A stretch of DNA of 64,000 bases. Origin: Asanoa siamensis (lineage in GTDB: Bacteria; Actinomycetota; Actinomycetes; Mycobacteriales; Micromonosporaceae). The position numbers and the translations under genes were made by a program. The notes under the pieces are model-generated. The model did no database searches. It worked only from the letters and a program-made list of their open reading frames with translations, and was not told the DNA's origin. The stretch lies in assembly GCF_016862555.1 (NCBI RefSeq), contig NZ_BONE01000012.1:62001-126000 (forward strand), read 5' to 3'. Below, piece by piece: positions 2,702 through 56,881 of this stretch. Every line of letters begins with the position of its first letter. Position 1 is the first letter of the stretch.

Positions 2702-5700
2702 CTAGCGGCGACCCGCGTACAGCTGCGTCACGTGCTCGGCGCTGAGCTCGTAGCCGTACAGGCGGAAGTCGTCGAGCAGCCCGTCGAACCGCGGGTCTCC
2801 CCAACTCGTCCCACCGAGGAAGTTGGCCGTGGTGGCTCCGCCCACGCCCACGTTGCCGATGCCGATCGGGAAATCGGAGCGGGTGGCCTGCAGGACCCCG
2901 TTGAAGTAGATCTTCGCCGTCGAGCCGCTCATCGTGAACACCACGTGGGTCCACTGGCCGAGCGGCAGGTCCCGGCCTGCCCCGAGGGTGAGCCGCTCCT
3001 GCGCCGGCACTCCCGCGGCCTTGAAGGTGGCCCCGAACCCGGTGGTCCCGCTGTTCGTGGCCGACTGGAGCAGGAAGAACGTGTCGGTGCTGCTGCCGAT
3101 CTGCAGCAGCGGCACCCAGTTCGGCAGCGTGTCCGGACGAGCCCAGAAGGACACGGTGAACTGGTTGGTCAGTCCGGATTGGATGTTGTTGGGCAGCCGG
3201 ACCTCGTTGCCCGAGGTCGCGGCGCCGCCCGGCAGGTTCACCGCGCTGCCGATCCGGCCGGCGGCCCAGGACACGGTGGCCGGCAGCGTCGCCGCACCGA
3301 GAGACGTCCTGGTGCCCGAGTTCCCGGCCGAGGTGCCGGTGTTCTCGTCGAAGGTGTAACGCACGGCGTTACCCTCGTTGAACATCGCCGCCACCTCCGG
3401 CGCGGTCAATGTGGACGTGTACACCCGTACGTCGTCGATCAGACCGTCGAACGCGGCGTCGGGGTATCCGTTGCGGCCCAGCCAGTTGTTGGCCGTCGGG
3501 CCGACGGCGGTCATGTCGACCGTCAGGTCGGCCCGGCTCGCGATCGCCACGCCGTTGAGATAAAGCGTGCCGATCGAGCCTTGGCGCGTGAACGCCACGT
3601 GGTTCCACTGGTTGGCGACGACGTCCTGGGCCGGGCTGGCGTACACCCTTTCCTCGGGGCCGGTCTTGGCCTTGAAGGTCGCGGCCAGGCCGGTGCTCCC
3701 GGACGCCTGGGTCTGCATCTGGATCTGGAAGTAGCTTCCGGCCGAGCCGAGCCCGTCGCCGATGTGGAACAGGCCGGTCCAGTTGCTCTTGGTGTCGGGA
3801 CGCACCCAGAACCCGGTCGTGAAGTTCGCCGCGTTCTGCAGCAGGTTGTCCGGCAGGTCCACCGCGTTGGCGGTGCTGCCGCCCGGCAGGTTGACCGCCT
3901 TGCCGATGACACCGTTGGTGGACCAGCCCGTGGTGCCGGTCAGGATCGCGGCGCCCGGCCCACCAGAGCCACCGGTGTTGGCGGCCGAGGTGCCCTGGCC
4001 CTCCTCGAACTCGTAGCGGACCGGGACACCGACGGGTGTCGGCGGCGGATCGTCGCCCACGACCACCAGGTCGTCGATCATCAGACCGGCGCCCGTGCCC
4101 GGACCCCGCAGGGTGAGCGTCTGCGTGGCCGTCGCCGCCGTGAACGTGCCGACGTACGTGCCGTAGTTGGCCGTCGAGGGCAGGCTCGTCGGCGCGGTGA
4201 TGGTGGCGTTCAGGTTGCCGACCGTCAGGCTGGCGCTCGCCGAACCGGTTCCGGAGACCCGGCTGTCACGTGCGTAGCGCAAGGACACCCGATAGGTGGT
4301 CCCGGGCGTCAGCGAGCTGAGCGTGCGTCTGATGTTGCCCGCGTTGCCCAGGCTGAGCTGGTATCCGGTGAGCCCGAGGCCACCCTGACCGGAAACGGTG
4401 CCGCGGACGAGCTGGACCTGGCTGTCGACCGTCCACGGCGACATCCGGGTGTTGCCGGCGGGGACGTCGACGGTGGCCGGCGGGTTGGCGGTGCGCCACT
4501 CCGCGGGCAGGCGCGGGTACTCGAACTGGTCGACGACCCGCGGGTTGAGCTGGCTCAGCTTGACCGCCGGGTCGACCTTCACGATCTTCGCGACCGACGG
4601 CGTGCCGGCCGCGTCCCAGACGAACAGCATGTACGACCCGGGAGGCGCGTACGTGCCGTTGACCGGCGCGTTGACGGTGACCGTGCCGCCGGACTGGCTG
4701 AACGCCAGGTCCTGGAAGTTCTGGTCGTTGTTGAAGCCGTGGGTCACCGAGCCGTTGCGGACCAGCGTGACCCGCGAGACGGTGCCGGAGGCGGTGATGC
4801 CGAAGCTGCCGTTGTAGCCGATGGTGGCCGGCGCGGTGTTGATCACCGGGCGCGGGGCGGGCTGGTCGCCGTTGAACAGGTACGCCGGGGAGTAGTACTC
4901 GACGTCCGTGTAGTTGCGCGGGCCGGGCGTGCCGCCGCCGCCCATCATGACGCGACCGTCGGGCAGGAGCAGCGCCGCGGAGTGATAGAGCCGGGCATGC
5001 TCGTACGGCACGGCGACCTCGGTCCAGTTCCCGGAGTCGGGATCCCAGATCTCGGCGTTCGTGACGTACCCGCCGTTGCCGTTGTTCTCGCGGCCGCCAC
5101 CGGTGACGAGCACGTCGCCGTCGGGCAGCACCGTCGAGGTCGCCCAGTGGCGCTGGTACTTCATCGGCCGGGTCGCCGTGACGACCGGGCTGGCCGTGCC
5201 GCCGGTGATGTCCACGGTGAAGCCGGCGCGCGCGCCGTCGGGGCCGCCGCCGTTGGCCCACCAGCCGCCGCCGACCTGCAGGATCTTGCCGGGGCGGTAC
5301 ATGGTGGCCGTGGAGGTGGCGCCGACCGGGTTGCCGTTCGCGCCCTGGTTGGCGATCGCGGCGGGCAGCGTGCCCCGCAACGTGACCTGTCCGGTGCCGC
5401 TGTTGCCCGCGGGGTTCAGCTCGTACATCTGGGTGCCGGTGATGTTGAACAGGGTCCCGCTGCCCGGGGCCACGAACGCCCGGGGGTACCACCAGCGGTT
5501 CTCGTCCTGACCGGCGTGGTCGGCACCGCCGTCGCCGTACGCGGCCGGGCTGCGGGCGCCGGTGAGCGTCTTCCAGCCCGAGCCGGACTGGGGCGTGTAG
5601 ATCTCCGGGGTGAGCACACCGGGGCCGCCCGGGCCGCCGCGGAGGCTGCCGCCCTGCACGACGATGTCGCCGTTGGGCATGGTGGTGCCGGTCGGGTACC

Positions 5701-6958
5701 ACCGGGGGTAGTTCATGGGCGCCTTGGTCTGCAGCCCGTTGTTGGTGGTGTAGCTGGTGACGCCGATGGCGGCGTCGTTGGGGCTGTTGCCGCCGAGTCC
5801 GTCGTCACCGCCGACCGTCATCGTCGAGTGGTCGTGCGGGTTCTGGACCTGCATGGCACAGAACAGGTCGGTGTACGTGGTGTTCGGCAGGATGCCCGCG
5901 CGGAGGTTGGTCAGGTTGCGCGGCTGGGCCGGGTCCCAGACGTCGACCTCCATCTGGCCGCCCTGGGTGACCGAGCTGTTGCCGGTCCAGTCGTACGGCG
6001 TGGTGTCGTTGCTCCAGCCCCCGACGCTGCCGAACGACTGCACCTTGCCGTCGGAGGTGAGCGACATGTTGATCGGCACCAGCGGCCACGGCGTGACACC
6101 GCTCCAGGCGCCGGCGCGGTCCTTCACGGGCGGTGAGCAGTCGGCGGGCAGCAGACCGGCGGCGTACGCGAGACCGTTCTTCATCTGGGCCCGCATGTAG
6201 GACTCGGCGTAGGCGGTGCCCTCGTGGCCCATCGAGGTGTACCAGGACCGCCCGGAGTCGATCTTCTGGCACCAGGTGACCGGGTGCGACGTGCCCTGCC
6301 GGCCGCCGCCGTACGACGCCTCGTCGGCCTCGATCAGGGTCCGCACGTACGGCGCCGGGTTGACCACCCAGTCGTACCACTCGTCGCTGCGGGTGAGCGA
6401 CGCCGTCACGCCCTGGGTGAGCGGGTGGGCGGTGTCCCGGACGAAGACCCGGCCCGGCCGGACGCCGGGGTCCTCCGGGTGTCCCTCGGAGGCGGCGCCG
6501 ACGAGGCGGGCGTAGAACGGGTTGACGTCGTGCTCGCTCTCGCCGACCGACCAGCCGGTGTAGTGCAGGCCCATGAAGCCGCCGCCACCGCGGATGTAGG
6601 ACTCCAGCGCGCTGCGCTGTGCCGCGTTGAACAGCACGCCACCGGTCTGCGCGAAGACCACGGTGTCCCGGGCGGCGAGGTTCGCGGTGTTGAAGACCGC
6701 GGGGTCGTCGGTCTCCTGGATCTCCACCGGCTGGTTGTACTGGGTGCCGAGCTGGGTGGCCAGGTCGCGCACCGCCTGCCGCGCCTGCACGTTCGAGGCG
6801 TGGAAGTTGGGCTTGTAGAACAGCAGGACGTTGAGCCGGCCGTCGTCGACCGCGGCGGCCCGGGCGGCGGCGTTGGCCACGGCCGGGACCGCCGACGCGA
6901 CGACGACGAGGATCAGGGCGAGGAGGGCGTGGGCAGACCTGCGGGGCACTTTCATCAT
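2702..6958 (-). CDS. Secreted ThuA / galactose-oxidase-like copper radical oxidase / double LamG protein
   Basis: A 1418-residue exported protein. It has a signal peptide (about residues 1-33, hydrophobic ALLALILVVVASAVPAV) and a ThuA-like domain (about 40-275). A galactose-oxidase kelch propeller with the C-terminal DUF1929 domain follows (about 285-830). All copper-site residues of this family can be placed: Cys367 in DLFCAM and Tyr421 in RWYPT (the Cys-Tyr cofactor), axial Tyr658 with His659 in RLYHS, and His740 in SVTHGF. After a jelly-roll-like linker come two tandem LamG-like domains (about 1010-1205 and 1210-1418). Such oxidases turn a C6 alcohol of galactose-type sugars or another primary alcohol into an aldehyde and H2O2 outside the cell. 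Start: tandem ATGs at 6958 and 6955, preceded by GAGGGGA. An IclR-type dyad lies upstream at 7082-7097. Confidence 0.85.
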   Translation of the reverse strand: MMKVPRRSAHALLALILVVVASAVPAVANAAARAAAVDDGRLNVLLFYKPNFHASNVQARQAVRDLATQLGTQYNQPVEIQETDDPAVFNTANLAARDTVVFAQTGGVLFNAAQRSALESYIRGGGGFMGLHYTGWSVGESEHDVNPFYARLVGAASEGHPEDPGVRPGRVFVRDTAHPLTQGVTASLTRSDEWYDWVVNPAPYVRTLIEADEASYGGGRQGTSHPVTWCQKIDSGRSWYTSMGHEGTAYAESYMRAQMKNGLAYAAGLLPADCSPPVKDRAGAWSGVTPWPLVPINMSLTSDGKVQSFGSVGGWSNDTTPYDWTGNSSVTQGGQMEVDVWDPAQPRNLTNLRAGILPNTTYTDLFCAMQVQNPHDHSTMTVGGDDGLGGNSPNDAAIGVTSYTTNNGLQTKAPMNYPRWYPTGTTMPNGDIVVQGGSLRGGPGGPGVLTPEIYTPQSGSGWKTLTGARSPAAYGDGGADHAGQDENRWWYPRAFVAPGSGTLFNITGTQMYELNPAGNSGTGQVTLRGTLPAAIANQGANGNPVGATSTATMYRPGKILQVGGGWWANGGGPDGARAGFTVDITGGTASPVVTATRPMKYQRHWATSTVLPDGDVLVTGGGRENNGNGGYVTNAEIWDPDSGNWTEVAVPYEHARLYHSAALLLPDGRVMMGGGGTPGPRNYTDVEYYSPAYLFNGDQPAPRPVINTAPATIGYNGSFGITASGTVSRVTLVRNGSVTHGFNNDQNFQDLAFSQSGGTVTVNAPVNGTYAPPGSYMLFVWDAAGTPSVAKIVKVDPAVKLSQLNPRVVDQFEYPRLPAEWRTANPPATVDVPAGNTRMSPWTVDSQVQLVRGTVSGQGGLGLTGYQLSLGNAGNIRRTLSSLTPGTTYRVSLRYARDSRVSGTGSASASLTVGNLNATITAPTSLPSTANYGTYVGTFTAATATQTLTLRGPGTGAGLMIDDLVVVGDDPPPTPVGVPVRYEFEEGQGTSAANTGGSGGPGAAILTGTTGWSTNGVIGKAVNLPGGSTANAVDLPDNLLQNAANFTTGFWVRPDTKSNWTGLFHIGDGLGSAGSYFQIQMQTQASGSTGLAATFKAKTGPEERVYASPAQDVVANQWNHVAFTRQGSIGTLYLNGVAIASRADLTVDMTAVGPTANNWLGRNGYPDAAFDGLIDDVRVYTSTLTAPEVAAMFNEGNAVRYTFDENTGTSAGNSGTRTSLGAATLPATVSWAAGRIGSAVNLPGGAATSGNEVRLPNNIQSGLTNQFTVSFWARPDTLPNWVPLLQIGSSTDTFFLLQSATNSGTTGFGATFKAAGVPAQERLTLGAGRDLPLGQWTHVVFTMSGSTAKIYFNGVLQATRSDFPIGIGNVGVGGATTANFLGGTSWGDPRFDGLLDDFRLYGYELSAEHVTQLYAGRR

Positions 6959-7097: not shown

Positions 7098-8579
7098 TCA
7101 GCGCAGCTCGGCGATGACCGTCTTGAGCTCGGTGTAGTCGTCCAGGCCGAACGAGCCGAGTTCGCGGCCCCAGCCCGACTGCTTGAAGCCACCACGCGGC
7201 AGCGTGACGTCGTCGGCGTGCCACGTGTTGAGCCACACCGTTCCGGCCCGCAGGCGGGCGCCGACGCGGTGGGCCGTGCCGATGTCGGTCGACCAGACAC
7301 CCGCGGCGAGGCCGTACACCGTGTTGTTCGCGGCCGCGACGACCTCGTCCTCGGTGTCGAACGGGATCGCGGTCACGACGGGGCCGAAGATCTCGTCGGT
7401 CTGCACCGCCATCCGCTCGTCGACGCCGGTGATCAGCGTCGGCTGCACGAAGTAGCCACGGTCACCGACCCGGTCGGCGCTGCCCGCCGTCAGCACGGCG
7501 CCGTCGCGGACGGCACCGCGGATGTAGCCCAGCACCTTCTCGTGCTGCTCCTGTGACACCAGCGGACCCATCTGCGCGGCGGGGTCGAAGCCGTCGCCCA
7601 CCGTGATCGCGGCCGCCGCGGCGGCGACCCCCTCGACGACCCGGTCGAAGACGCCGCGCTGCACGTACAGGCGCGAGCCGTTGACGCAGCACTGCCCCTC
7701 GTTGAAGTAGCCGCCCAGCACCGCGCCGGCGATGGCCGCATCGATGTCCGCGTCGGCGAAGATGATGTTGGGAGCCTTGCCGCCGAGCTCGAGGGAGACC
7801 TTCTTCAGGTTGCCGGCGGCCGCCGCGGCGATCTTCTTGCCGACCTCGGTGCTGCCGGTGAAGGCCACCTTGTCGACACCGTGGTGCGCGACCAGCGCGG
7901 CCCCGGTGTCGCCGAAGCCGGGCAGCACGTTCACGACGCCGGCCGGCACGCCGGCCTCGAGCAGCAGCTCGCCGAGGCGCAGCGCGGTCAGCGGCGTCTG
8001 CTCGGCCGGCTTGAGGATCACGGTGTTGCCCGCGGTGATCGCCGGGATGATCTTGAAGCAGGCCATCAGCAGCGGGAAGTTCCACGGCACGATGCCGGCG
8101 ACGACGCCGATCGGCTCGCGGCGCGTGTAGGCGTGGAACTCGCGACCCGGCACCGACATCGGGATGGTGGTGCCCTCCATCTTGGTCGCCCAGCCGGCGA
8201 AGTAGCGGAAGAGCTCCGCGGCGGTGGCGATGTCGCCGTCCCGGGCCGCCTCGACGCGCTTGCCGTTGTCGAGGGCCTCGAGCTGGGCGAGCTCGTCGGC
8301 GTGGGCCTCGATCAGGTCGCCGATGCGCCAGAGCAGGTGCGAGCGGTCGCGCGGGGTCATCCTCGACCAGGGCGAGCCGGACTCGAACGCCGCGCGCGCC
8401 GCCACGACCGCCCGGTCCACGTCGACGCTCGACGCGTACGCGACCTGGACCAGGTCCTCCTCGGTCGACGGGTTGACGGTGGCGAAGGTCCGCCCGTCCT
8501 TCGCGTCCACCCACTCACCGTCGATGAGCAGCTGCTTGGGCGACGACAGGAACGAGCGGACGGCGGGCAGGAGATTCAT
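7098..8579 (-). CDS. NAD(P)-dependent aldehyde dehydrogenase
   Basis: A 493-residue cytoplasmic ALDH-superfamily enzyme of normal length. It has the oxyanion asparagine in PWNFP (Asn167), cofactor-loop TGSTEVG, the general base Glu264 in LELGGK and the nucleophile Cys298 in EGQCCVNGSR. It oxidises an aldehyde to the carboxylic acid; the substrate is not readable from sequence, but residues resemble betaine/phenylacetaldehyde-type ALDHs. It is the last gene of the kdu-ABC operon, 12 bases behind the second permease. ATG start with AGGAAGG nearby. In this setting it may oxidise a sugar aldehyde or a semialdehyde from uronate breakdown (inference). Confidence 0.9.
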   Translation of the reverse strand: MNLLPAVRSFLSSPKQLLIDGEWVDAKDGRTFATVNPSTEEDLVQVAYASSVDVDRAVVAARAAFESGSPWSRMTPRDRSHLLWRIGDLIEAHADELAQLEALDNGKRVEAARDGDIATAAELFRYFAGWATKMEGTTIPMSVPGREFHAYTRREPIGVVAGIVPWNFPLLMACFKIIPAITAGNTVILKPAEQTPLTALRLGELLLEAGVPAGVVNVLPGFGDTGAALVAHHGVDKVAFTGSTEVGKKIAAAAAGNLKKVSLELGGKAPNIIFADADIDAAIAGAVLGGYFNEGQCCVNGSRLYVQRGVFDRVVEGVAAAAAAITVGDGFDPAAQMGPLVSQEQHEKVLGYIRGAVRDGAVLTAGSADRVGDRGYFVQPTLITGVDERMAVQTDEIFGPVVTAIPFDTEDEVVAAANNTVYGLAAGVWSTDIGTAHRVGARLRAGTVWLNTWHADDVTLPRGGFKQSGWGRELGSFGLDDYTELKTVIAELR

Positions 8580-8591
8580 GGTGGCCTTCCT

Positions 8592-9548
8592 TTATTTGAC
8601 GGTCGAGACTTTCGCACGGTCGAGGGTGAGCGCGACCGCGACGACGATGATCGCGCCGTACAGGATCTGCTCGTACGCGGAGGGCACGCCGACGATCGGC
8701 AGGCCCACCCGCAGGAGCGTCACGACGAGCGCGCCGGCGAAGCTGCGCCACACGCTGCCGTGGCCGCCGGTGATGGCGGTGCCGCCGACCACGATCGCCG
8801 CGACCGCCGGCAGGAGCAGATTGTCGGCCATCGTGGGGCCGCCGCTGAACTGCCGCGACACCAGCATGACCGCGGCGAGCCCGGCGCAGCCACCGGAGAC
8901 GCAGAACGCACCGATCTTGACCAGGTCGACCGGTGTGCCGGCGAGCCGCGCGGCCGACTCGGAGTAGCCGGTGGCCGCGATCCAGCTCCGCAGCGGGGTC
9001 ACCGTCAGGACCACGGCGATCAGGGCGACGACGAGGACCGCCATGGCGGCGGACATCGGCACGTAGCCGGCGAGATAGAGGTCGAGCCAGTGGATCGTCG
9101 AGTCGTCGACGACCCGTACCGTGCCGGCGCCCGAGATCACGAGGGCGACCGCGGACAGGATGGCCATGCCGCCCAGGGTGACGATGAACGACGGAATCCG
9201 CAGCAGCACGTGCGCGGCGCCCTGCGCCGCGCCGATCGCCGCCGCGACCAGGATCACGGCCGGTGTGGCGAGGCCGCCGAGTTCCGGCAGCCACAGGGCC
9301 AGGAAGACGGTCGACAGCGAGGCCAGCGCCGCGATGGACAGGTCGATGCCGCCGCAGAGCACGACCAGCGTCGCCCCCGCGGCCAGCACGATGAGCGGGG
9401 CGGCGGTCCGTGCCACCGCGATCAGGCTGCGCTGCGTCAGGAAGTCCGGGTCCGCGACGGTCAGGGCGGCGACCAGCGCCACCAGGGCGATGAGCGGCAT
9501 GAACCCGGTGAGCCGGTGGACCGGCTTCATGGCGACTGCGGTGCTCAT
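8592..9548 (-). CDS. Sugar ABC transporter permease (RbsC type), second
   Basis: A 318-residue polytopic membrane protein with 8-10 hydrophobic segments. It has the branched-chain/ribose permease signatures GGIDLSIAALASLS near residue 65 and IVVGGTAITGGHGSVWRS near residue 245. It belongs to the CUT2 permease family and forms the channel for the ATPase encoded just upstream. Its ATG overlaps the ATPase stop (ATGA), which shows translational coupling. The operon has two different permease genes, so the importer is probably a heterodimer. Confidence 0.9.
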   Translation of the reverse strand: MSTAVAMKPVHRLTGFMPLIALVALVAALTVADPDFLTQRSLIAVARTAAPLIVLAAGATLVVLCGGIDLSIAALASLSTVFLALWLPELGGLATPAVILVAAAIGAAQGAAHVLLRIPSFIVTLGGMAILSAVALVISGAGTVRVVDDSTIHWLDLYLAGYVPMSAAMAVLVVALIAVVLTVTPLRSWIAATGYSESAARLAGTPVDLVKIGAFCVSGGCAGLAAVMLVSRQFSGGPTMADNLLLPAVAAIVVGGTAITGGHGSVWRSFAGALVVTLLRVGLPIVGVPSAYEQILYGAIIVVAVALTLDRAKVSTVK

Positions 9549-11062
9549 ACCATCTCTTTCACGAGGTCCAGAGGGCTCGGCTTGCCGCCGTTGGGGCAGG
9601 CGACCTCGGTGGCGACCCGGCCGTCGGTCATGACCAGGATGCGGTCGGCCATGCCGATGGCCTCCTCGAGGCTGTCGCCCAGGAGCACGGTGGCGACGCC
9701 GGTCGCGGCGAGCTCGCGCATCAGCCGGTACACCTCCGAGCGGGCGCCGATGTCCAGGCCGCGCGTCGGATGGTCCAGCAGGAGCAGCCGGACGTCGCCG
9801 GCCACCAGCCAGCGGGCCAGGATCACCTTCTGCTGGTTGCCGCCGGACAGCCGCTGGATCGGGGTGTCCCGGCCCGGGGTCCGGATGGAGAGCCGGCGGA
9901 TCCACGAGTCGACCAGCGTGGCCTGCTTCCTGGGTGCCACGAACGGTCCCGCGAGGCGGGCCCGCTGCTTGGCCAGGGTCATGTTCTCGGCCACCGACAT
10001 CGGCCCGACCATGCCCTCGATCTTGCGTTCGGCCGGCACGTAGCCGATGCCGGCGGCGCAGGCGGCCCGGGTGCTGGGCAGCTCGATCGTCCGGCCGTCC
10101 ATCCGGATCTCGCCGGCGGTCGTCGGTTCGGCGCCGAACAGCGCGCGGCAGACGTCCTCGCGACCGGAGCCGTGCACGCCGACGATCGCCACGATCTCGC
10201 CGCGCGCGACGTCGAAGCTGATGTCCCGGAACGTCGCGCCCGACAGCCCGCGTACGGACAGCCGGGGCTCTTCGGAGACGACCGTGGTGGCGGCGTTCTC
10301 GTGGTAGTGGTCGTCGGATCCGGTGGAACCGATCATCATCCGGTGCAGCTCGCGTGGGACCGCGCCGGCCGTGGCGACCTCGCCGACCGACCGGCCGCCG
10401 CGCAGCACGGTCACCCGGTCGCAGACGTCGAGCACCTCGTCGAGCCGGTGCGAGACGAAGATGACCGTGGCGAACTCGCGCAGCCGGCGGATCTGCGCGA
10501 ACAGCGTGTCGATCTCCTTCGGCTCCAGGACCGAGGTCGGCTCGTCCAGGATGACGACCGGCGGATGCTGGGTACGCTCCTCGATGCGCAGCACCTTCGC
10601 GATCTCGACCATCTGCCGGTCGGCGAAGGAGAGCGAGTCGGTACGGGCGAGCGGGTCGATCCGCGAGCCGATCTTGTCGAGCTGCTCCTGGGCCAGGCGG
10701 CGCATGACCTCCCAGCGGTAGACGCCCCGGCGGACGGCGGGCCCCTCGCTGCCGAGCACGATGTTCTCCGCGGCGGTCAGGTTGGGCACCAGCGACTGTT
10801 CCTGGAACACCATCCCGATGCCGTGGTCGGCGGCGTCCACGACGCTGCGCAGCCGGACAGGCTCGCCGCGGACGTGTATCGAGCCGGCGTCCGGGGCGAC
10901 CAGGCCGACCAGCGCTTTGAGCAATGTGGACTTGCCGGCGCCGTTCTCCCCCGCCAGACCGAGCACCTCGTTGCGCCGTACGACCAGGTCGACCCCGTCG
11001 AGGGCCTTCACCCCGGGGTAGTGCTTGACGAGGCCGCGTACCTCCAATGCCGGGACGCTCAT
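9545..11062 (-). CDS. Sugar ABC transporter ATP-binding protein (RbsA type)
   Basis: A 505-residue protein with two tandem ABC domains, the CUT2 layout. The first has Walker [10 protein letters not shown] (near residue 37), the signature LSFADRQMVEIAK and Walker B VVILDEPTS. The second has the degenerate P-loop region VGVHGSGREDVCRALFG and the signature [15 protein letters not shown] with LLLLDHPTRGLDIG; the Walker B acidic residue is followed by His instead of Glu (DHPT). It drives uptake of a sugar or sugar acid with the flanking permeases. ATG start at 11062 overlaps the stop of the preceding permease (ATGA). Confidence 0.92.
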   Translation of the reverse strand: MSVPALEVRGLVKHYPGVKALDGVDLVVRRNEVLGLAGENGAGKSTLLKALVGLVAPDAGSIHVRGEPVRLRSVVDAADHGIGMVFQEQSLVPNLTAAENIVLGSEGPAVRRGVYRWEVMRRLAQEQLDKIGSRIDPLARTDSLSFADRQMVEIAKVLRIEERTQHPPVVILDEPTSVLEPKEIDTLFAQIRRLREFATVIFVSHRLDEVLDVCDRVTVLRGGRSVGEVATAGAVPRELHRMMIGSTGSDDHYHENAATTVVSEEPRLSVRGLSGATFRDISFDVARGEIVAIVGVHGSGREDVCRALFGAEPTTAGEIRMDGRTIELPSTRAACAAGIGYVPAERKIEGMVGPMSVAENMTLAKQRARLAGPFVAPRKQATLVDSWIRRLSIRTPGRDTPIQRLSGGNQQKVILARWLVAGDVRLLLLDHPTRGLDIGARSEVYRLMRELAATGVATVLLGDSLEEAIGMADRILVMTDGRVATEVACPNGGKPSPLDLVKEMV

Positions 11063-12054
11063 TTGACCACCTGGTTCCGTCGACGTTGCGGGATGACGGC
11101 GGCGGCGACCGCGGCCACCACGATGAGACCCTCGACGCCGCCCTGCCAGTACGGACTGACCCCGACCTGGACGAGACCGTTGGTGAGGACCATGACGAGC
11201 AGGACGCCGACGGCGGAGTGCCCGATGCCGCCGCGACCCCCGGTCAGCAGGGTGCCGCCGACGACGGCGGCGGTGATGGCCGAGAAGTCGTACCCGTCGC
11301 CGGCCTGGACGAGGCCGGCGCCGAGTTGGCTGGTCACCATCACGCCGGCCAGCCCGTAGAAGGCGCCGGCGAGGGTGAAGACCGCGACCTTGTACGGCTT
11401 CACCTTGACGCCCGAGAGCGCGAGCACCTCCTCGGCGCCGCCGATGGCGAAGGCGTAGCGACCCAGCCGGGTGTAGCGCTGGACGAGCCAGCCGACCAGG
11501 ACACACCCGGCGGCGATCCAGGTGAGGTACGAGAGCCCGAGGAACCGCTCGATCGCCAGCCCCTTGACCATGGTGTCGGAGATGTTGGGCTGCACGCCGG
11601 CGAACATCAGGGTCGCGACGCCGAGCCCGACGGCCGACATCCCCAGCGTCGCCATGAACGAGGGCACCTTCAGCAGCACCAGGGCGAGCCCGCTCAGGCA
11701 GCCGAACGCGCAGCCCAGCAGGACGGCGACCGCGATGCCGAGCAGCCCGAAGTCGTTGTCGTTGCGATTGTTGGCCACCAGCAGCGAGACGGTCAGCGCG
11801 GAAGCGCCCATCACGCCGGCGGCCGACAGGTCGATCGACCCCATCATCAGCACGAACGTGATTCCGCAGGTGACGACGGCGAGCACGGCGGCGGCGTCCA
11901 CGATGTTCGCGACGTTGTCGAGGCTGCGGAACTGCGGGCTCAGGGCCGCGAAGACCAGGAAGACGACGATCAGCGCGACCGGTGGGCCAGCATCTCGAAA
12001 CGACGCGCCTCGCCGGGACTGGCGGCGAGGCGCGTTGACGACCTCGGACGTCAT
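11059..12054 (-). CDS. Sugar ABC transporter permease (RbsC type), first
   Basis: A 331-residue membrane protein of the CUT2 permease family with about nine hydrophobic segments and the conserved MMGSIDLSAAGVMGAS and VVGGTLLTGGRGGIG loops. The ATG at 12054 lies two bases after the lipoprotein stop; a GTG at 12060 that overlaps that stop (GTGA) is an alternative start and would add two residues. It works with the ATPase that follows. The operon order lipoprotein-permease-ATPase-permease is less common than keeping both permeases together. Confidence 0.9.
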   Translation of the reverse strand: MTSEVVNAPRRQSRRGASFRDAGPPVALIVVFLVFAALSPQFRSLDNVANIVDAAAVLAVVTCGITFVLMMGSIDLSAAGVMGASALTVSLLVANNRNDNDFGLLGIAVAVLLGCAFGCLSGLALVLLKVPSFMATLGMSAVGLGVATLMFAGVQPNISDTMVKGLAIERFLGLSYLTWIAAGCVLVGWLVQRYTRLGRYAFAIGGAEEVLALSGVKVKPYKVAVFTLAGAFYGLAGVMVTSQLGAGLVQAGDGYDFSAITAAVVGGTLLTGGRGGIGHSAVGVLLVMVLTNGLVQVGVSPYWQGGVEGLIVVAAVAAAVIPQRRRNQVVK

Positions 12055-12056
12055 GG

Positions 12057-13148
12057 TCACGTCAGGGGCCCGGCCACACGGTTGAAGACGTTGCCGCACT
12101 CGAAGTCGGCCGGGTTCGTCTTCGGCGCGGCGAACTCGCCGGCGTTGTCCTTGGTGATGAGGAACTGCTCGGCGAAGAACGCCCGGTTGTCCTTGGCGAT
12201 CTCCTCCACCTTGAGCTTGCCGGTGGCGGCGCAGAAGCCGATCGCCAGGCCGACGCCGCCCTGCCACGAGCCGTCGCTGGAGACGGTGGCGGTCATCGTG
12301 CCGTTCTTCACGGCGGTGACGGCGTCCGGGACGGCGTCGATGCCCACGACCGCCACCTTGCCGGCGAGACCCGCCTGCTGCAGCGCCTCGAGAGCGCCCA
12401 GCGCCATGTCGTCGTTGGCCGCCCAGATGCCCTTGACCTTGTCGCCGTGCTTGGTCAGCAGCGTCTTGGTGACGGTGAGCGCCTCGGCCCGCGAGAAGTT
12501 GGCCGCCTGCTGGTCGAGGAGCTTGACGCCGGTGTTCTTCTCGAGCGACTTCTGCAGGCCGGCGAACCGGTCCTTGGCCGCCGCGGTGTCGAGCACACCC
12601 TGCAGCGCGATGATGCCGCCCGAGCCGCCGATCGCGGTGGCGAGCGCGTCACCGATCTGCTGGCCCGACTCGACGCCGTTGTAGGTGATGTGGCTGAGCC
12701 AGGTCTTGTAGTCGGCCGGCTTCAGGTCGGCCGGCTTGTTCCACTGCGTGACCAGGTACGCCCCGGCCTGGTCGGCACCCTTGACGATCGGCGCGGTGTC
12801 CGAGTCGCCGTTGGGGAGCACGTTCATGACCAGGCACTTGGTGTCGCCGGCGAGGATCTGGCTGATCTGCTCCTGCTGCTTGGTGGAGTCACCGTCGTAG
12901 GTGAGGCGCTCCTGGGTGAGACCGACGGACTTGGCGAAGGCGTCGCCACCGGCGAGCCACGAGGCCTCGTACGGGTTCGACTCGTTGCGGACCTGCCCCA
13001 CCAGCCGGACGGCGGACGGCTCGCAGGCGGCCTCGCCGCCGGCGGCGGTGTCGTTGCCTCCGGCGGCCTGCTCGCTGCAGCCGGAGAGGACGGCAGCGGC
13101 TAAGGACAGGCTCATGATGACGGCGGCGGGACGAAGGACGATATTCAT
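12057..13148 (-). CDS. Sugar-binding lipoprotein of ABC transporter
   Basis: A 363-residue periplasmic-binding-protein-like lipoprotein. A signal sequence ends in the lipobox LSGC (about residues 20-23), followed by a Gly/Ala-rich linker and a type I fold like RbsB (GIWAANDDMALGALEALQQ, then VAVVGIDAVPDAVTAV). It captures the substrate outside the membrane for the two permeases. Start: the ATG at 13148, seven bases after GAGG; a TTG two codons upstream is less likely. The substrate is unknown, but co-transcription with kduI and kduD suggests an unsaturated uronate-derived oligosaccharide, a uronate or an oxidised sugar. Confidence 0.88.
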   Translation of the reverse strand: MNIVLRPAAVIMSLSLAAAVLSGCSEQAAGGNDTAAGGEAACEPSAVRLVGQVRNESNPYEASWLAGGDAFAKSVGLTQERLTYDGDSTKQQEQISQILAGDTKCLVMNVLPNGDSDTAPIVKGADQAGAYLVTQWNKPADLKPADYKTWLSHITYNGVESGQQIGDALATAIGGSGGIIALQGVLDTAAAKDRFAGLQKSLEKNTGVKLLDQQAANFSRAEALTVTKTLLTKHGDKVKGIWAANDDMALGALEALQQAGLAGKVAVVGIDAVPDAVTAVKNGTMTATVSSDGSWQGGVGLAIGFCAATGKLKVEEIAKDNRAFFAEQFLITKDNAGEFAAPKTNPADFECGNVFNRVAGPLT

Positions 13149-13220
13149 GATCAATCCTCGATTTCTCGTTGCCGGGGACGGTGCGGTCTTGGTGCTGGCT
13201 TGCTGCGGTGGAGGCCGGGG

Positions 13221-13979
13221 TCAGCGGGCCATCCACCCTCCGTCGACGACCAGGACGTGGCCGTTGACGTAGTCGGCGGCGGCGGAGCTCAGGAAGACGG
13301 CCGCGCCGGCGACATCGGCGGCGTCCCCCCAGCGACCGGCCGGGATGCGCGCGAGGATCGCCCGGGACCGGTCGGGGTCGGCCCGCAGCGCGGTGGTGTT
13401 GTCGGTGGCCATGTAGCCGGGCGCGATGGCGTTGACCTGCACGCCGAGCGGACCCCACTCGTTGGCCAGGGCCTTGGTGATGCCGGCGACGCCGTGCTTG
13501 CTGGCGGTGTAGGCCGCGACACGGATGCCGCCCTGGAAGGAGAGCAGGCTGGCGACGCTGACGATCTTGCCGTGGCCGCGCGCGGCCATCGGGCGGCCGA
13601 ACTCCTGGCAGAGGAAGAACAGGCCGTTCAGGTTGACGTCCACCACCCGGTGCCAGGCCTGCCGGGTCACGTCTAGGGCGTCCGCGCGGTCGATGATGCC
13701 GGCGTTGTTGACCAGGATGTCCACCTGACGGCTGCCGGTCACCTCGGCCGCGACCCGTCCGACGGCCTCGTGGTCGCTGACGTCGAGGTCGACGATCTCG
13801 ACGTCGCGGCCGAGGTCGGCCACCTGGTCGCGGGTCTCCGTCTGGCTGCCCGACCGGCCGACCAGGACCAGATCGGCGCCGGCCCGGGCGAGCCCGAGCG
13901 CGATGCCCTGTCCGAGGCCACGGCCGGCGCCGGTGACGACGGCGCAGCGGCCGTGCAGGTCGAACGGCGAGCGGGTCAC
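13221..13979 (-). CDS. kduD: 2-dehydro-3-deoxy-D-gluconate 5-dehydrogenase (KduD-like SDR)
   Basis: A 252-residue short-chain dehydrogenase with the cofactor motif TGAGRGLGQG (about residue 15), the NNAG motif, the catalytic serine in SVASLLSFQGG and YTASK (Tyr/Lys). The C-terminus YVNGHVLVVDGGW is typical of KduD. Known KduD enzymes reduce 2,5-diketo-3-deoxygluconate to 2-keto-3-deoxygluconate with NADH in the cytoplasm. The GTG start at 13979 overlaps the kduI stop (GTGA), so kduI and kduD are coupled, as in pectin-degrading bacteria. Its place in the operon supports the name more than sequence alone, since SDR specificity is hard to read. Confidence 0.85.
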   Translation of the reverse strand: MTRSPFDLHGRCAVVTGAGRGLGQGIALGLARAGADLVLVGRSGSQTETRDQVADLGRDVEIVDLDVSDHEAVGRVAAEVTGSRQVDILVNNAGIIDRADALDVTRQAWHRVVDVNLNGLFFLCQEFGRPMAARGHGKIVSVASLLSFQGGIRVAAYTASKHGVAGITKALANEWGPLGVQVNAIAPGYMATDNTTALRADPDRSRAILARIPAGRWGDAADVAGAAVFLSSAAADYVNGHVLVVDGGWMAR

Positions 13980-14794
13980 AGCTCCTCCAGCGCCACCGGG
14001 GTCAGGTCGGTGTAGTCGTTGTTCTCGCCGCCCATCGCCCAGATGAAGGCGTACGAGCCGGTGCCGACACCCGAATGGATCGACCACGGCGGCGAGATGA
14101 CCGCCTCGCGGTTACGCACGACCAGGTGGCGGGCGGCGCCGGGCCGGCCCATGAGGTGGAAGACGCGCTCCTTCTCGTCGAGGTCGACGTAGAGGTAGAC
14201 CTCGGTGCGCCGGTCGTGCAGGTGCGGCGGGAGCGTGTTCCACACCGAGCCGTCGGCGATGACGGTGACGCCGAACTGCAGCACCGCGGTCTGGAGCTCC
14301 TGGCCCCACGCGTACCGGTAGAGGCTACGTTCGTTGGCACCCTGCGGGGTGCCGAGCCGGACCGGCTCGATCGACGCGTGGCTGAGCAGGGTCGTCGGGT
14401 AGGTCGCGTGCGCCGGAGCGCTGACGAAGTAGAACGCGGCGTCGGGGCCGGCGAAGGTGACCTCGTTGCCACGGCCGACGAAGAGTCCGTCGAGGTGGCG
14501 CAGCTCGAACTTCTCGTTGTTGACCAGCACGTGGCCCGGCTGGCCCACGTTGACGACGCCGAGCTCGCGGCGGGTCAGGTGGGACGGCGCGCCGAGCACG
14601 TCCCAGGCCGGCAGCTCGAGCTGATCGGTGCCGGGAACCGCCGCGCCGACGATCAGCCGGTCGTCGTGGGTGTAGACACCCCGGACCTCGCCGGTGCGGA
14701 ACAACTGCTCCACGAGGAAGTTCTTTCGCAGGTCGGCATTCGTCGCCGTCTCGACCTCTGACGGCGATGCGGAGTACCTAACTTCGATCAACAC
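13976..14794 (-). CDS. kduI: 5-keto 4-deoxyuronate isomerase KduI
   Basis: A 272-residue KduI/IolB cupin-family isomerase close to the length of known KduI. The zinc ligands are visible as His191 and His193 in PPHLHDRR, Glu198 in TEVYLY and His240 in WSIHSGVG. It converts 5-keto-4-deoxyuronate (from unsaturated uronates) to 2,5-diketo-3-deoxygluconate. KduI of E. coli is also reported to act on galacturonate and glucuronate. Start: GTG at 14794, with a TTG directly after it; GAGGAG precedes both, and the TTG has the better spacing. First gene of a seven-gene operon, divergent from the IclR regulator. Confidence 0.93.
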   Translation of the reverse strand: MLIEVRYSASPSEVETATNADLRKNFLVEQLFRTGEVRGVYTHDDRLIVGAAVPGTDQLELPAWDVLGAPSHLTRRELGVVNVGQPGHVLVNNEKFELRHLDGLFVGRGNEVTFAGPDAAFYFVSAPAHATYPTTLLSHASIEPVRLGTPQGANERSLYRYAWGQELQTAVLQFGVTVIADGSVWNTLPPHLHDRRTEVYLYVDLDEKERVFHLMGRPGAARHLVVRNREAVISPPWSIHSGVGTGSYAFIWAMGGENNDYTDLTPVALEEL

Positions 14795-14807: not shown

Positions 14808-14832
14808 GTGAACCGCGTTCAGCTACGTGAAC
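14808..14832. promoter_or_regulatory. IclR-type operator cluster in the kduI/iclR intergenic region
   Basis: The half-site GTGAAC (14808-14813) is followed by the dyad GTTCAGCTACGTGAAC (14817-14832). The dyad fits the GTTC-N8-GAAC pattern and lies just upstream of kduI. Confidence 0.55.
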
Positions 14833-14883
14833 CGAGCCGAACGATACCTATGGCTCCGATCACAGGTCAAGAGCTTGAAGTTG

Positions 14884-14899
14884 GTCCCTCTATGTGAAC
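14884..14899. promoter_or_regulatory. Second IclR-type operator, upstream of iclR
   Basis: GTCCCTCTATGTGAAC matches the oxidase-promoter site at 12 of 16 positions, with one arm (ATGTGAAC) intact. It is 57 bases upstream of the chosen iclR start, consistent with autoregulation. Confidence 0.45.
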
Positions 14900-14955
14900 T
14901 GTGGTTGAGTCTGGTGGCATGCTTGAGGCGCGTCATCGTCGATGAGGAGGTCTGG

Positions 14956-15729
14956 GTGGACACGGACAAGACGGCCAACGGCGGCTCCGCCACCTCGCAG
15001 GTCAAGTCGGCCGCGCGCGTCCTCGACCTCCTGGACGACATCGCCGCGAACGGCCCCGGCACCCAGCTGCAACTGGCCACCCGCCTCGGCATCCCCAAGA
15101 GCAGCCTGCACGCGCTCCTGCGCACCATGTGCGCCCGCGGCTGGCTGGACACCGACCAGACCGGCAGCGTCTACCGGCTCGGCGTGCACACGCTGACGGT
15201 CAGCTCCGCCTATCTGGACGGTGACCCGGTGCTGTCGCGCGCCCGGTCCGTGATGGACGAGATCGCGGCGGCCACCGAGGAGACCGTGCACCTGGGCCGC
15301 CTCGAGGGTGCCGAGATCATCTACACCGCCAAGCGCGAATCCAAGCACCCGTTGCGGATGTACTCGGCCGTCGGGCGCCGCCTGCCCGCGTACATGACGG
15401 CGCTCGGCCGGGCGATGCTCGCCGAGCTGCCCGAGGACGTCCGCGACCCGCTCATCCCCCACCAGATCAAGCCGGTCACCACGCAGACGATCACCGACCG
15501 GGACGCGTTGCTGGCGATCATCGACAAGGCCGGCCAGCTCGGCTACGCGGAGGAGAGCGAGGAGTCCTGCCTGGGCGTCCGCTGCTTCGGCGTCGCGCTG
15601 CCCTTCTCGCACCGCTCGCAGGACGCGGTGAGCGTCGCGGTCCCGGTCAGCCGCCTCGACCAGGGTCGCGAGGACTTCATCATCGAGACCCTGCTGAGCG
15701 TGAAGGCCCGCCTGTCGGCGATGCGTTAG
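14956..15729 (+). CDS. IclR-family transcriptional regulator
   Basis: A 257-residue regulator with an N-terminal winged helix (SAARVLDLLDDIAANGPG, then LATRLGIPKSSLHALLRTM) and the C-terminal IclR effector domain. That domain has the typical LGRAMLAELP, YAEESEESCLGVRCFGVAL and VSVAVPVSRL segments. Start: the GTG at 14956, five bases after GAGGAGG; the frame extends upstream without support. It is divergent from kduI, the usual position for the regulator of a kdu operon (compare KdgR). The repeated GTTC-N8-GAAC dyads are its probable binding sites. The inducer is probably a keto-deoxy sugar acid (inference). Confidence 0.9.
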   Translation: MDTDKTANGGSATSQVKSAARVLDLLDDIAANGPGTQLQLATRLGIPKSSLHALLRTMCARGWLDTDQTGSVYRLGVHTLTVSSAYLDGDPVLSRARSVMDEIAAATEETVHLGRLEGAEIIYTAKRESKHPLRMYSAVGRRLPAYMTALGRAMLAELPEDVRDPLIPHQIKPVTTQTITDRDALLAIIDKAGQLGYAEESEESCLGVRCFGVALPFSHRSQDAVSVAVPVSRLDQGREDFIIETLLSVKARLSAMR

Positions 15730-15950
15730 CTCTTCTCGAACGCCGCCACCACGCCGGCGCGGCTCGGGTCCTCGCTGGCGAGCACGCCGCCGTTGGCCAC
15801 GATGTCCGGGGTGATCTCGTTGAACACCATCCGGACGTCCTGGGGGCGGGCACCGAGGATCTCGACCGCGTGCGCGGTCACGGCCTGGGCGAAGGCCCGC
15901 CGCTGCTCCAGGGACCGACCCGCGAGCAGCTCAACGGTGATGTTAGGCAT
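15726..15950 (-). CDS. 4-oxalocrotonate-tautomerase-family protein
   Basis: A 74-residue protein beginning MPNITVELLAGRS. After removal of Met, Pro1 is the catalytic base of the tautomerase superfamily, and the segment RSLEQRRAFAQAVTAHAV is typical. Such enzymes interconvert keto and enol forms of small acids and act as small oligomers in the cytoplasm. Its stop overlaps the iclR stop by a few bases in convergent orientation. A clean GTTCAC/GTGAAC dyad 38 bases upstream of its start suggests that it belongs to the same regulon as kduI. The substrate is unknown. Confidence 0.85.
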   Translation of the reverse strand: MPNITVELLAGRSLEQRRAFAQAVTAHAVEILGARPQDVRMVFNEITPDIVANGGVLASEDPSRAGVVAAFEKS

Positions 15951-15987
15951 GGCGCCCCTCTCCCGTACATCCAGACTATGGACCTGA

Positions 15988-16003
15988 GTTCACCAACGTG
16001 AAC
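15988..16003. promoter_or_regulatory. IclR-type operator upstream of the tautomerase gene
   Basis: GTTCACCAACGTGAAC has perfect 6-bp arms (GTTCAC and GTGAAC) around CAAC. It is the cleanest of the shared dyads and sits directly upstream of the tautomerase start. Confidence 0.55.
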
Positions 16004-19718: not shown

Positions 19719-22700
19719 TCACCGCGCGCGGCGGTCGGCGAAGTAGTCCGCCGCTTCGGTCAGCCACTCCGACCCGCCGGCGGTGAGGGTGGGGTCGGCG
19801 ACCAGGGCGTGCAGCGCCGTGCGGGCCGCCGCGGACCGGCACGGGTCGAGCATCAGCAGCAGGCGGGCCGCCTCGTCGCGCGTGGCGGGGCGGGTCGTGC
19901 GGTCCAGGGCCACCCGGGCGAGGCCGGCCACCGCGACGTCCGTCTCTCCCAGGGAGGCGATCTCGTAGAACAGCGTGACGGAGAGCTGCCGCTCGGCGGC
20001 CTTCTCGGCGATCGTGGCGAGGGTCCGGACGCCGGCGGCGCGCATGGACGAGAAGCGGGCCAGCTCGCGGGCCGCGAGCGCGCTCGTCCCGATCTCCGTC
20101 TGCGCCTGCGCGACCTGGACCAGGACCTTCGTGCGCCGCTCCTCGTCGCTCTCACCGAGTTGGACGAGCTCGCGGGCCGCCTGCAGGGCGTCGAAGCCGG
20201 TCAGGCGGTAGCACAGCGCCTCGACCGCGTCCTGCGCCACGCCCTGGAAGTCGAGTGCCCAGAGCGAGACCTCCCGGGCCAGATCGAGGCGGTCACGCAG
20301 GCGGAGGGTGTCGGTGGAGATCAGATCGGCGGTACGGCCCAGGGCTGTCCGGCGGGCGGCCGGGCCGAGCTGCGCCAGTGCCCGGATCGCCTCGCGGCGG
20401 CTCGGCAGCGGCAGGCTGTCGTCGTCGACGACGGCGGAGACGACGTCGAGAGCGGCCGGCCGGGAGTGTGGGTCGGCGGCGGCGAGGTCGCGCGCCAGGG
20501 CCAGCCGCTGGGCGGTGCCGCTCGCCTCCCGCAGCGCGGCGCGCAGAGCGGCGGCGAGCACCGGCCCGTGGTCGGGTCCGAGCTGCGCCAGGGCCCGGGC
20601 GGCGACCACGCGCTCGGCGGCGGGGACGGCGGGTTCCGCGACGATCCGGCGCAGGTCGGCCACGCCCTGCGCGTAGCCGGCTTCCCCGAGTTCGAGGAGG
20701 GCCTGGGCGGCACTCGTCCGGTCGTCGGCCGGCGCGGCCCCGGTCGCCATCCCGTGCAGCAGGCCGGCGGCCCGGTCGCGGTCACCCCCGAGGCTCGTGG
20801 CGACGAGCTGCGCGGCCGCGATCCACTCGCGGGGGCAGACGCCGAAGTCGGGTCCCGCGGCTTCGGTCAGGACGGTGACCGCCTCGTCCGCCGTGTCCGC
20901 CCGCAGGAACTCCTGGGTCAGGGCGACGGGCGACACCGCGCCCGATCCGATCAGCCGGGCGAGCGCCGTACGCGCCGATGGGACCTGTTCCGGTGTGAAG
21001 CTCTCCAGCAGTCGGAAGGCGTGCACCTGGAGGTTCGGCGCGACGCCCCAGCGGAGGACGAGGCGAAGGCGGTCGCCGGCCCGGCCCCGGAAGGCCGGGC
21101 CCTGCGCGGCGAACAGCGCGATGGTCGACGGTGCGGCGCCGGTGGCGAAGTTGGCGGACCGGTTCACGTACTCGTCGAAGAGCTTCAGGGTGATGTCGTC
21201 GAAGCGGGGGGCCTGGTCCTTCAGCGCCTCGAGCGCGTCGGCCGTGCTCAGCCGACGGTTGGCGATCAGCCGGTTGACCCGGACCTGGACGTAGCGGGTC
21301 TCCCGGGAGGTGGCCAGCGTACGCACGGCGCGCACCAGCAGGTCCCCGGTGATGTCCGGTGCGTCGAGCAGGGGGCGGAGCAGCTCCACGCCGCCGGGCG
21401 GGAGCGGGCGAACGGCCGCCATCGCCTCGCACCGGGCGAGCACCTCGGCCGGGGTGTCGGGGCGGGGCGCGGGTTCGGGCGGACGCCGCCGTGGCGACCG
21501 GGGTCGGGTTTCGGCCGCCGGCCGGCCGCGGGGCACACGGGTCAGGCCGCGTGCGGCGAGCCACGCGTCGTCGAAGCGCCACAGGTCGAGGTGGACGACG
21601 ACGCGCAACAGCCGGTGGACCACGGCGTCCCAGCTCGGCACGCGCCGGAGCCGTGGCCGCGGCGCGTCGTCGACGGGCGGCCGGGTCGCCGCCGGTCCCG
21701 CGGCGGGCGGCTCCGGGGTCGTCGGCCGCGGCGGGTCGGGCAGCACACGGCCGGCCCGGGCATGGAGCGCCCGTACCGTCGCCGTCTCGTACCCGCTCAG
21801 GCGCTTGTCGTCGCTCAGCGGGCCGAGCACCTCGATCGCGCTGCGCTGCCCGACCAGGCCGAGGTCGAGCAGCGCCTCCGCGGCCTGCAGCCGCTGCCGC
21901 GCCCTGACTCCCGGGTCGCCCGCGATGGCGTGCAGCGCCTGGGCACCGACCGCGGAGGACGTGCGGTACGAGACCAACGCCTCGGCCGCACCCAGCCGCA
22001 GCTCGGCGTCCGCCGTGCTGTCGCTCGCCACCTCCTGGAGCACGTCGACCACGTCGGGCTGCACGGGCAGGCTCGCCGCGAGCCGCACGGCGGCGAGGGC
22101 CCGGTCGGCGGTGTGCGACGCCCGGCGGGTGCGGCTGGTCCAGAACCGCAGCGCCTCGGCGAAGCGCGCGAACTGCCGCGGTTCGGCGGGAACCCCTTCC
22201 GCGAGCAGCCGGGCCGCGAGCATCTGGCTGTCCTCGTCGCCGCCGGCGAGCCAGTCGAGCAGCGCGGCCGTGGAGCCGTGCTGGAAGGCGTGGTGGGCCA
22301 GCACGGCCAGGGCCTCGCCGGTCGGGAAGCGGCGGGCCGCCGTGACGTAGTAGGCCCACAGCTCGTGGTCGGCGTCGAACTCGGCGGGCAGGCTCCGCGC
22401 CCGGCTGCTCGCGACCCGGTGCTCCGCGAACGTGTGGTGCACGAACTTGAGGTCCGTGCCGACGTGGGCGAGCAGCCCGGTGCTGGTCGCCACGCTCGCG
22501 ATGATCAGCTGCCAGTCCGGTGGGGCCGGGTCCGGACGGCGGCCCGCCTGGCGGATCCACTCCGCCGCCGCGGCCGACAGCCCGGCGCCGCGCAGCGCCG
22601 CCTCGGCCAGGTGGTCGACGAGGGCGAGCCGGTGGTCGGCCAGCCACCGCGCCAGCGCCGCGCCGTCCGGCCAGCCGCGCAGCCGCTCGGTGAGACCGTC

Positions 22701-53189: not shown

Positions 53190-56881
<3,692 letters not shown>

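Follow-up and report, generated by a model that had tools for sequence, protein, structure and literature searches.

The stretch of DNA discussed here, referred to as the window, comprises 64,000 nucleotides of the genome of Asanoa siamensis, a member of the Micromonosporaceae (contig NZ_BONE01000012.1, positions 62,001 to 126,000). Near its beginning, a gene on the minus strand (2702..6958) encodes a protein of 1418 residues composed of a ThuA domain, a copper radical oxidase, a DUF642 domain and two LamG domains, here called the fusion protein. Upstream of this gene, on the same strand, are found an aldehyde dehydrogenase, the components of a sugar importer and the enzymes KduD and KduI, and this tie of the fusion to the kdu pathway is the unexpected part of the analysis. 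To our knowledge, little is understood of what exported ThuA domains, and bacterial copper radical oxidases apart from GlxA, do in nature.

Architecture of the Fusion Protein

The reading frame of the fusion protein starts with an ATG at 6958 and ends with a stop codon at 2702 on the minus strand; a plus-strand reading of the same interval contains a stop. All domains listed below are thus encoded on the minus strand. The N-terminus is signal-like as judged by eye and is followed by the ThuA domain (residues 43−266, 6161..6832), which was identified from its Pfam match (PF06283, 158 bits, cut-off 33.4) and from a fold match to the ThuA-like structure 4jqs. The oxidase propeller encompasses approximately residues 286−700 (4859..6103), as defined by Pfam (Kelch_6, residues 604−654), an AlphaFold2 model and a fold search. 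It is followed by a GO-like E-set domain (residues 703−795, 4574..4852; 80 bits, cut-off 25), i.e., the order of a kelch propeller and an E-set domain is that of AA5-like oxidases. A scan of the gap between the domains yielded a DUF642 domain at about residues 829−956 (4091..4474), where the score of 30.3 bits is barely above the cut-off of 27. The two LamG domains at the C-terminal end, residues 1029−1190 as matched (3389..3874) and about 1199−1413 (2720..3364), are covered by two stretches of Laminin_G_3 (183.5 bits, cut-off 27.6).

The AlphaFold2 model of residues 39−800, calculated with 57 sequences, has a mean predicted local distance difference test score (pLDDT) of 82 and a predicted template-modeling score (pTM) of 0.83. 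In a Foldseek search, the first 27 PDB matches of this model were copper radical oxidases, the best of which was a bacterial galactose oxidase (9g8h/9g43), and 4jqs was matched with an E-value of 6.7e-11. In a Foldseek search with a model of the DUF642/LamG tail, clostridial neurotoxin receptor-binding domains rank behind the arabinanase AbnA, and the Pfam model Toxin_R_bind_N is below its cut-off in the fusion protein; a kinship with neurotoxins was rejected, the similarity being read as one of a shared lectin-like fold only. The galactose-oxidase E-set domain was matched once in the A. siamensis genome, namely in the fusion protein. Just downstream of the fusion gene is found a frame that matches peptidase S51 (1932−2624, minus strand), and the flanks compared for the named loci described below yielded no relative of it.

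A first-pass annotation of this DNA, made from the sequence alone, had assigned ThuA, copper radical oxidase and two LamG domains to one exported protein. The open reading frame and the Pfam domains confirm this assignment, and export is borne out as apparent from the N-terminus. The structure prediction and domain-architecture search that the annotation had proposed support the same architecture, to which the scan of the gap adds the DUF642 domain missing from its list. The strand and the operon context were likewise absent from that account, and the operon is the strongest evidence on function.

Type of Oxidase

The catalytic residues that had been named at the outset are all present at the expected positions: Cys367 (codon at 5858..5860), the cross-link Tyr421, Tyr658 and His659 (4982..4987) and His740 (4739..4741). 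Corresponding residues are found in the aligned solved galactose oxidases. An alignment of 64 sequences, including that of the window, showed that each of the five residues is invariant (64/64).

The second coordination shell differs from that of galactose oxidase, for which W290 and R330 are described as key indicators in PMC11267884. At the Trp290 site the motif GGSWSGG of the bacterial galactose oxidase is replaced by GGSLRGG in the fusion protein, i.e., the residue is Leu439, and across the 64 sequences this position holds Leu in 55, Val in four, Ser in three and Ile in two. For R330 no clear Arg equivalent is seen in the alignment, which is gapped in this region. Instead, a Trp directly precedes the cross-link Tyr in 64/64 sequences (Trp420-Tyr421, codons at 5696..5701). 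The same consecutive arrangement, W509-Y510, is reported for a fungal AA5_1 aldehyde oxidase (PMC13094651 (2026)), and it is also found in the sequence of the GlxA structure 4unm. PMC13094651 also describes the flipped second-shell Trp (W288) of GlxA and suggests a link to glyoxal-oxidase catalysis.

The exchange in the second shell (Leu439, Trp420) rules out the label galactose oxidase, and the original comparison with that enzyme is misleading in this respect. By the sign of the Trp-Tyr pair, the predicted copper radical oxidase belongs to the glyoxal/aldehyde-oxidase type. By score, it is a member of neither of the corresponding families: with the Glyoxal_oxid_N model the fusion protein reaches 30.1 bits (cut-off 37.5), and with the GlxA model 128 of 800 bits, far below the cut-off. 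The initial idea was an oxidation of galactose at C6 to the aldehyde; in view of the aldehyde-oxidase signature, the proposed target was extended to either an alcohol or an aldehyde at C6.

Distribution of the Fusion

A scan of named genomes, using search patterns taken from the ThuA, oxidase and LamG stretches, yielded 68 loci, and in 63 of these ThuA and the oxidase share one frame. The remaining five comprise two split copies (L090 and L095), two ThuA-LamG-LamG proteins (L091 and L092) and a locus, L096, where the match is confined to ThuA. The 63 fusion loci are found in Asanoa, Actinoplanes, Catellatospora, Herbidospora, Nonomuraea, Dactylosporangium, Cellulomonas, Nocardioides, Promicromonospora, Kribbella, Blastococcus, Isoptericola and Myceligenerans, among others. 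In a sample of the Micromonosporaceae, 15 of 150 genomes matched, 14 with an intact fusion and one (G014) with a fusion split over two frames. At the threshold used, 10 of 394 genomes matched in a sample of the class: that of A. siamensis itself, one with LamG only (G224) and eight further genomes with the fusion. Many fusions outside the family of the window exceed the window protein in length, measuring about 1820 to 2290 residues between stops, with Herbidospora and Nonomuraea as exceptions; two of the long versions were scanned and have additional Ig- or cadherin-like domains.

Because the set of 68 loci was built on patterns from these same domains, it is no measure of how often such oxidases lack ThuA, and a separate test was made. 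In a sample of 396 genomes of the phylum, where at most three candidates were scored per genome, an oxidase-only profile matched 48 places in 33 genomes. The test for ThuA covered 30 of these 48 places, with some frames running past the ends of the retrieved stretch, and within this scope the ThuA profile matched only at the window's own locus, i.e., at none of the 29 others. A Trp is found at the site of residue 420 in 26 of these 29 loci; of the other three, two carry a different residue and one, a fragment, has no residue there. The distant rows are less surely aligned. In the nearest oxidases without ThuA (L155−L157), the oxidase is followed by an H-type lectin domain.

The domain order had been described as unusual, and this holds in comparison with the other oxidase loci. 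It is no one-off, as seen from the 63 loci that share the frame. Equally, the suggestion that ThuA might prove to be a known N-terminal part of the oxidase family is half right: it is a constant element within this clade, and the 0/29 result rules it out as a general part of the family. Judged from the sequences, the ThuA-oxidase architecture represents a known kind of enzyme in a stable variant that is found across many actinobacterial genera. Proteins composed of ThuA-LamG-LamG without the oxidase (L023, L024, L091, L092 and L041:4615−8157) are 75−85% like the window protein; the one in L041 is located directly before a second copy of the fusion.

Gene Neighborhood

Upstream of the fusion gene, the same strand encodes an aldehyde dehydrogenase (7098..8579), a sugar ATP-binding cassette (ABC) permease (8592..9584), a sugar ABC ATPase (9545..11095), a second permease (11059..12063), a sugar-binding protein (12057..13154), KduD (13221..13982) and KduI (13976..14794). 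The dehydrogenase, the permeases and the ATPase were assigned from profile scans and locus comparison; the starts of the ATPase and the second permease are tentative, and for the latter a longer frame was scanned. For the binding protein the nearest models are those of RbsB, below their cut-offs. KduD and KduI are both above the cut-offs of their models (TIGR01832, 355 of 338.85 bits, and NF002091, 356 of 250 bits, respectively). Then follow a divergent gene for an IclR-family regulator (14827..15729, plus strand), where the nearest models, BhcR and KdgR, are below their cut-offs, and a tautomerase frame of 87 residues stop to stop (PF01361 in a frame scan; 15729..15989, minus strand).

Flanks of up to 6 kb were compared for the 63 fusion loci, with gene families named from scanned examples. 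The aldehyde dehydrogenase, 75−95% identical, is found in 59 of them (among all 68 named loci, 60 have it upstream and on the strand of the fusion), the two permeases in 59 and 58, the ATPase in 57 and the binding protein in 26. The permease counts are not independent because the two match each other, and the neighbors missing from these counts are in part missing because the flanks are short. Additional neighbors are a tautomerase (41 loci), CopC-CopD (38), a DUF1775 protein (32) and a PfkB kinase (32). The kinase is probably KdgK-like and is not found in the cluster of the window itself.

Either the aldehyde dehydrogenase or KduI is found within 6 kb in 62 of the 63 loci, where three loci (two from Blastococcus, one from Actinotalea) have KduI within reach instead of the dehydrogenase. 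The sole exception is the second fusion copy at L041, and the first copy of that genome (L033) has the dehydrogenase. In the 20-kb surroundings of the fusion in seven genomes, the binding protein and the regulator were found in all seven, and the aldehyde dehydrogenase and KduI each in six as called; the KduI of the seventh (G190) was identified in a separate profile search. Beyond the regulator and tautomerase of the cluster, the related Asanoa genome G005 encodes a protein with PA14, F5_8 type C and 3-keto-disaccharide-hydrolase domains (L140:10754−14227, minus strand).

Co-occurrence with KduI

Each of 20 fusion genomes has one KduI above the cut-off, and neither of two Asanoa genomes without the fusion has any. 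In the Micromonosporaceae sample KduI is present in 14 of the 14 genomes with an intact fusion, compared to 17 of the 136 others (Fisher p = 1.5e-11, uncorrected for ancestry). The distance between the fusion and KduI is 1.3−9.3 kb in 22/22 genomes. The genome with the split fusion (G014:C2:2080076−2082413; L022 and L028) has no KduI, as if fusion and pathway had decayed together.

Exported ThuA Domains

In the ThuA part of the 64-sequence alignment, 67 of 230 positions are invariant in all sequences, including six His residues and a DEWY motif. Among these are His53, His132, His160, Asp192-Glu193-Trp194-Tyr195, His225 and Gly244-His245, while His178 varies (58/64). The LamG part is much less conserved, with 9% and 0% invariant positions.

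The A. siamensis genome contains 15 ThuA matches in 13 places, one of which is the fusion; two places show two pieces each. Of the 12 other ThuA proteins seven were scanned: four are ThuA-GSDH proteins with PKD and CBM6 domains, in two ThuA is joined to a 3-keto-disaccharide-hydrolase domain along with carbohydrate-binding domains, and the last contains ThuA and a partial DUF7910. Fusions to GSDH or 3-keto-disaccharide-hydrolase domains are thus recurrent in this genome (L130−L135). The invariant His residues and the DEWY motif listed above are also present in 7/7 of these paralogues, except for Asp192 (5/7), and this core, shared with differently partnered proteins, argues for a similar job of ThuA in all of them. 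The N-terminus is clearly hydrophobic and signal-like, as judged by eye, in at least five of the seven. The notion that ThuA domains are usually cytoplasmic, as stated in the first-pass annotation, does therefore not describe the pattern in A. siamensis, where an exported ThuA domain is, as judged from these N-termini, ordinary.

Other Features of the Window

Elsewhere in the window, all on the minus strand, a frame of 1397 residues at 19719−23912 has a NACHT domain and no NCBIfam match at 1e-5, and could encode a defense or regulatory protein of the STAND type. A GH9 cellulase with fn3, CBM2 and CBM3 matches is located at 53190−56195 and a 921-residue frame with a zinc carboxypeptidase (M14) domain at 60045−62810. 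Three large frames of 549, 888 and 792 residues (36216−37865, 42738−45404 and 49347−51725, respectively) have no Pfam match at 1e-5.

Proposed Function

The gene linkage described above would place the fusion protein in the pathway encoded by its neighbors. The oxidase probably serves the kdu cluster, and the occurrence of the fusion beside sugar-acid genes in many soil actinobacteria suggests an undescribed form of oxidative sugar feeding. More specifically, the fusion protein may act outside the cell as the oxidative step in a conserved sugar-acid pathway of the kdu type, a reading to which we assign a probability of roughly one-half. No paper combining a ThuA domain, or linking KduI, with galactose oxidase was found in the open-access papers searched, where the pairing of KduI with glyoxal oxidase was not part of the search.

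A possible sequence of events is as follows. The LamG and DUF642 domains would hold the protein on a glycan, and the oxidase would convert an alcohol or aldehyde group at C6 of a sugar residue, yielding hydrogen peroxide. The new carbonyl, a C6 aldehyde, would acidify the neighboring C5-H, and ThuA could use this carbonyl to break the glycosidic bond by elimination or hydrolysis, and may act likewise beside the sugar dehydrogenases of its other fusions. Elimination at C4 would yield a 4,5-unsaturated dialdose and, upon ring opening, a 5-keto-6-aldehyde. The released 4-deoxy unsaturated or 5-keto sugar would be imported and converted by the tautomerase and the aldehyde dehydrogenase to 4-deoxy-5-keto-uronate, the substrate of KduI, from which KduI, KduD and a KdgK-like kinase would yield 2-keto-3-deoxygluconate (KDG) and its 6-phosphate (KDPG). 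A single chemistry would then explain every gene of the cluster. That oxidation and elimination proceed exactly in this manner is doubtful. It is quite unlikely that the protein is a two-enzyme “oxidative lyase” in which the oxidase oxidizes C6 of a neutral polymer sugar and ThuA uses the carbonyl for β-elimination, such that glycans free of uronic acids become 4-deoxy-5-keto-uronate, and that other exported ThuA fusions achieve the same with a dehydrogenase instead of the oxidase. The putative assignment of ThuA as a lyase draws on its invariant residues and on an analogy to the fusions in which it has other partners.

Several observations weigh against such a pathway. For galactose 6-aldehydes generated by galactose oxidase, β-elimination has been described (PMC3388858), but there it is a chemical reaction that needs heat and alkali and is avoided under mild conditions. 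An enzyme would thus be needed, for which ThuA is the candidate, and no source was found that establishes a ThuA-catalyzed elimination. With a consecutive Trp-Tyr shell, aldehydes are more probable substrates than sugar alcohols, which would overlap with the function of the cytoplasmic aldehyde dehydrogenase. Furthermore, shared ancestry inflates the co-occurrence of fusion and KduI, and the 17 family genomes mentioned above harbor KduI without the fusion.

The presence of pectate lyase points in the same direction. KduI and KduD are the classical end of pectin breakdown, where the supply of KduI requires unsaturated uronides. PL1 was found in 14/14 genomes tested of the family, 12 with and two without the fusion, with seven matches in A. 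siamensis itself, and because of these ordinary pectin breakdown could feed KduI in the window's family. The cluster would then be an ordinary uronate operon supplied by polysaccharide lyases, the oxidase would only trim or loosen the cell wall, for example at side-chain sugars, and ThuA would have a binding or structural role; the ThuA-like domain of PelA is discussed as a carbohydrate-binding or interaction part (PMC12022489). However, PL1 was not found in any of the eight fusion genomes outside the family, nor was GH88/105 in 15 of 20 fusion genomes, A. siamensis included. Six fusion genomes have neither, in a lyase search that covered PL1 only, and all have KduI near the fusion, which favors the fusion, or another lyase family, as the supplier of KduI in these organisms. 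In addition, two Asanoa genomes have PL1 but neither the fusion nor KduI, and we know of no step in the classical uronate pathway that needs an aldehyde dehydrogenase. An accessory role in pectin breakdown is considered possible, if on the whole unlikely.

A similar, somewhat smaller chance is given to an idle ThuA domain, i.e., a scaffold retained because it helps a multidomain oxidase to fold or be secreted. The oxidase could act alone, and the related oxidases L155−L157 have no ThuA. Against a scaffold stand the 67 invariant positions, with six His and the DEWY motif in 64/64 sequences, most of them common to paralogues with other partners. That the oxidase is a GlxA-like peroxide maker or cell-wall enzyme, which serves morphology or a peroxidase partner and has its kdu neighbors by chance or by co-regulation, is very unlikely. 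It shares the Trp-Tyr second shell with GlxA, which is reported to form a cellulose synthase complex with CslA (PMC11022532), but the low score with the GlxA model, the lectin-like tail, which suits glycan binding, and the linkage to the importer, the aldehyde dehydrogenase and KduI across many genera all speak for a different role.

The placement of the fusion protein in the kdu-type pathway has a practical consequence, because the conserved cluster ties the oxidase to a defined metabolite, the substrate of KduI, such that the roles of both the oxidase and ThuA become accessible to direct growth and product tests. If correct, the combination of oxidation and elimination would open polysaccharides in a new manner.

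Comparison with Known Systems

By sequence and fold, the best solved relatives of the fusion protein are the AA5_2 galactose oxidases from Pseudarthrobacter siccitolerans (9g43/9g8h) and Fusarium graminearum (1gof), at about 21−24% identity in Foldseek. They share with it the propeller and E-set domains, the Cys-Tyr pair, the axial Tyr and the two His, but the fusion protein has Leu439, a Trp before the cross-link Tyr, ThuA in front and DUF642 and LamG domains behind. The fungal AA5_1 enzyme FgrAldOx (9n3u) and the bacterial GlxA (4unm) have the consecutive Trp-Tyr in their active sites in common with the fusion protein, which, however, is below the cut-offs of the family models and differs in its other domains and its gene context.

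The KduI-KduD uronate pathway resembles the cluster in having KduI and KduD above the cut-offs, an importer, an IclR regulator and, in 32 of 63 loci, a PfkB kinase. In contrast, the cluster also has a secreted oxidase together with an aldehyde dehydrogenase and a tautomerase, and most of the tested hosts lack GH88/105. The ThuAB proteins of Sinorhizobium meliloti, where, according to the title of a paper, assimilation reportedly proceeds via 3-keto derivatives, are related to the fusion in that ThuA is a member of the same family; they belong to a rhizobial route for trehalose and maltitol. In the ThuA-GSDH and ThuA-3-keto-disaccharide-hydrolase proteins the partner is not a copper radical oxidase, but they are built in the same order as the fusion protein, with ThuA first, then a sugar-active domain and then carbohydrate-binding domains, and they share its core residues.

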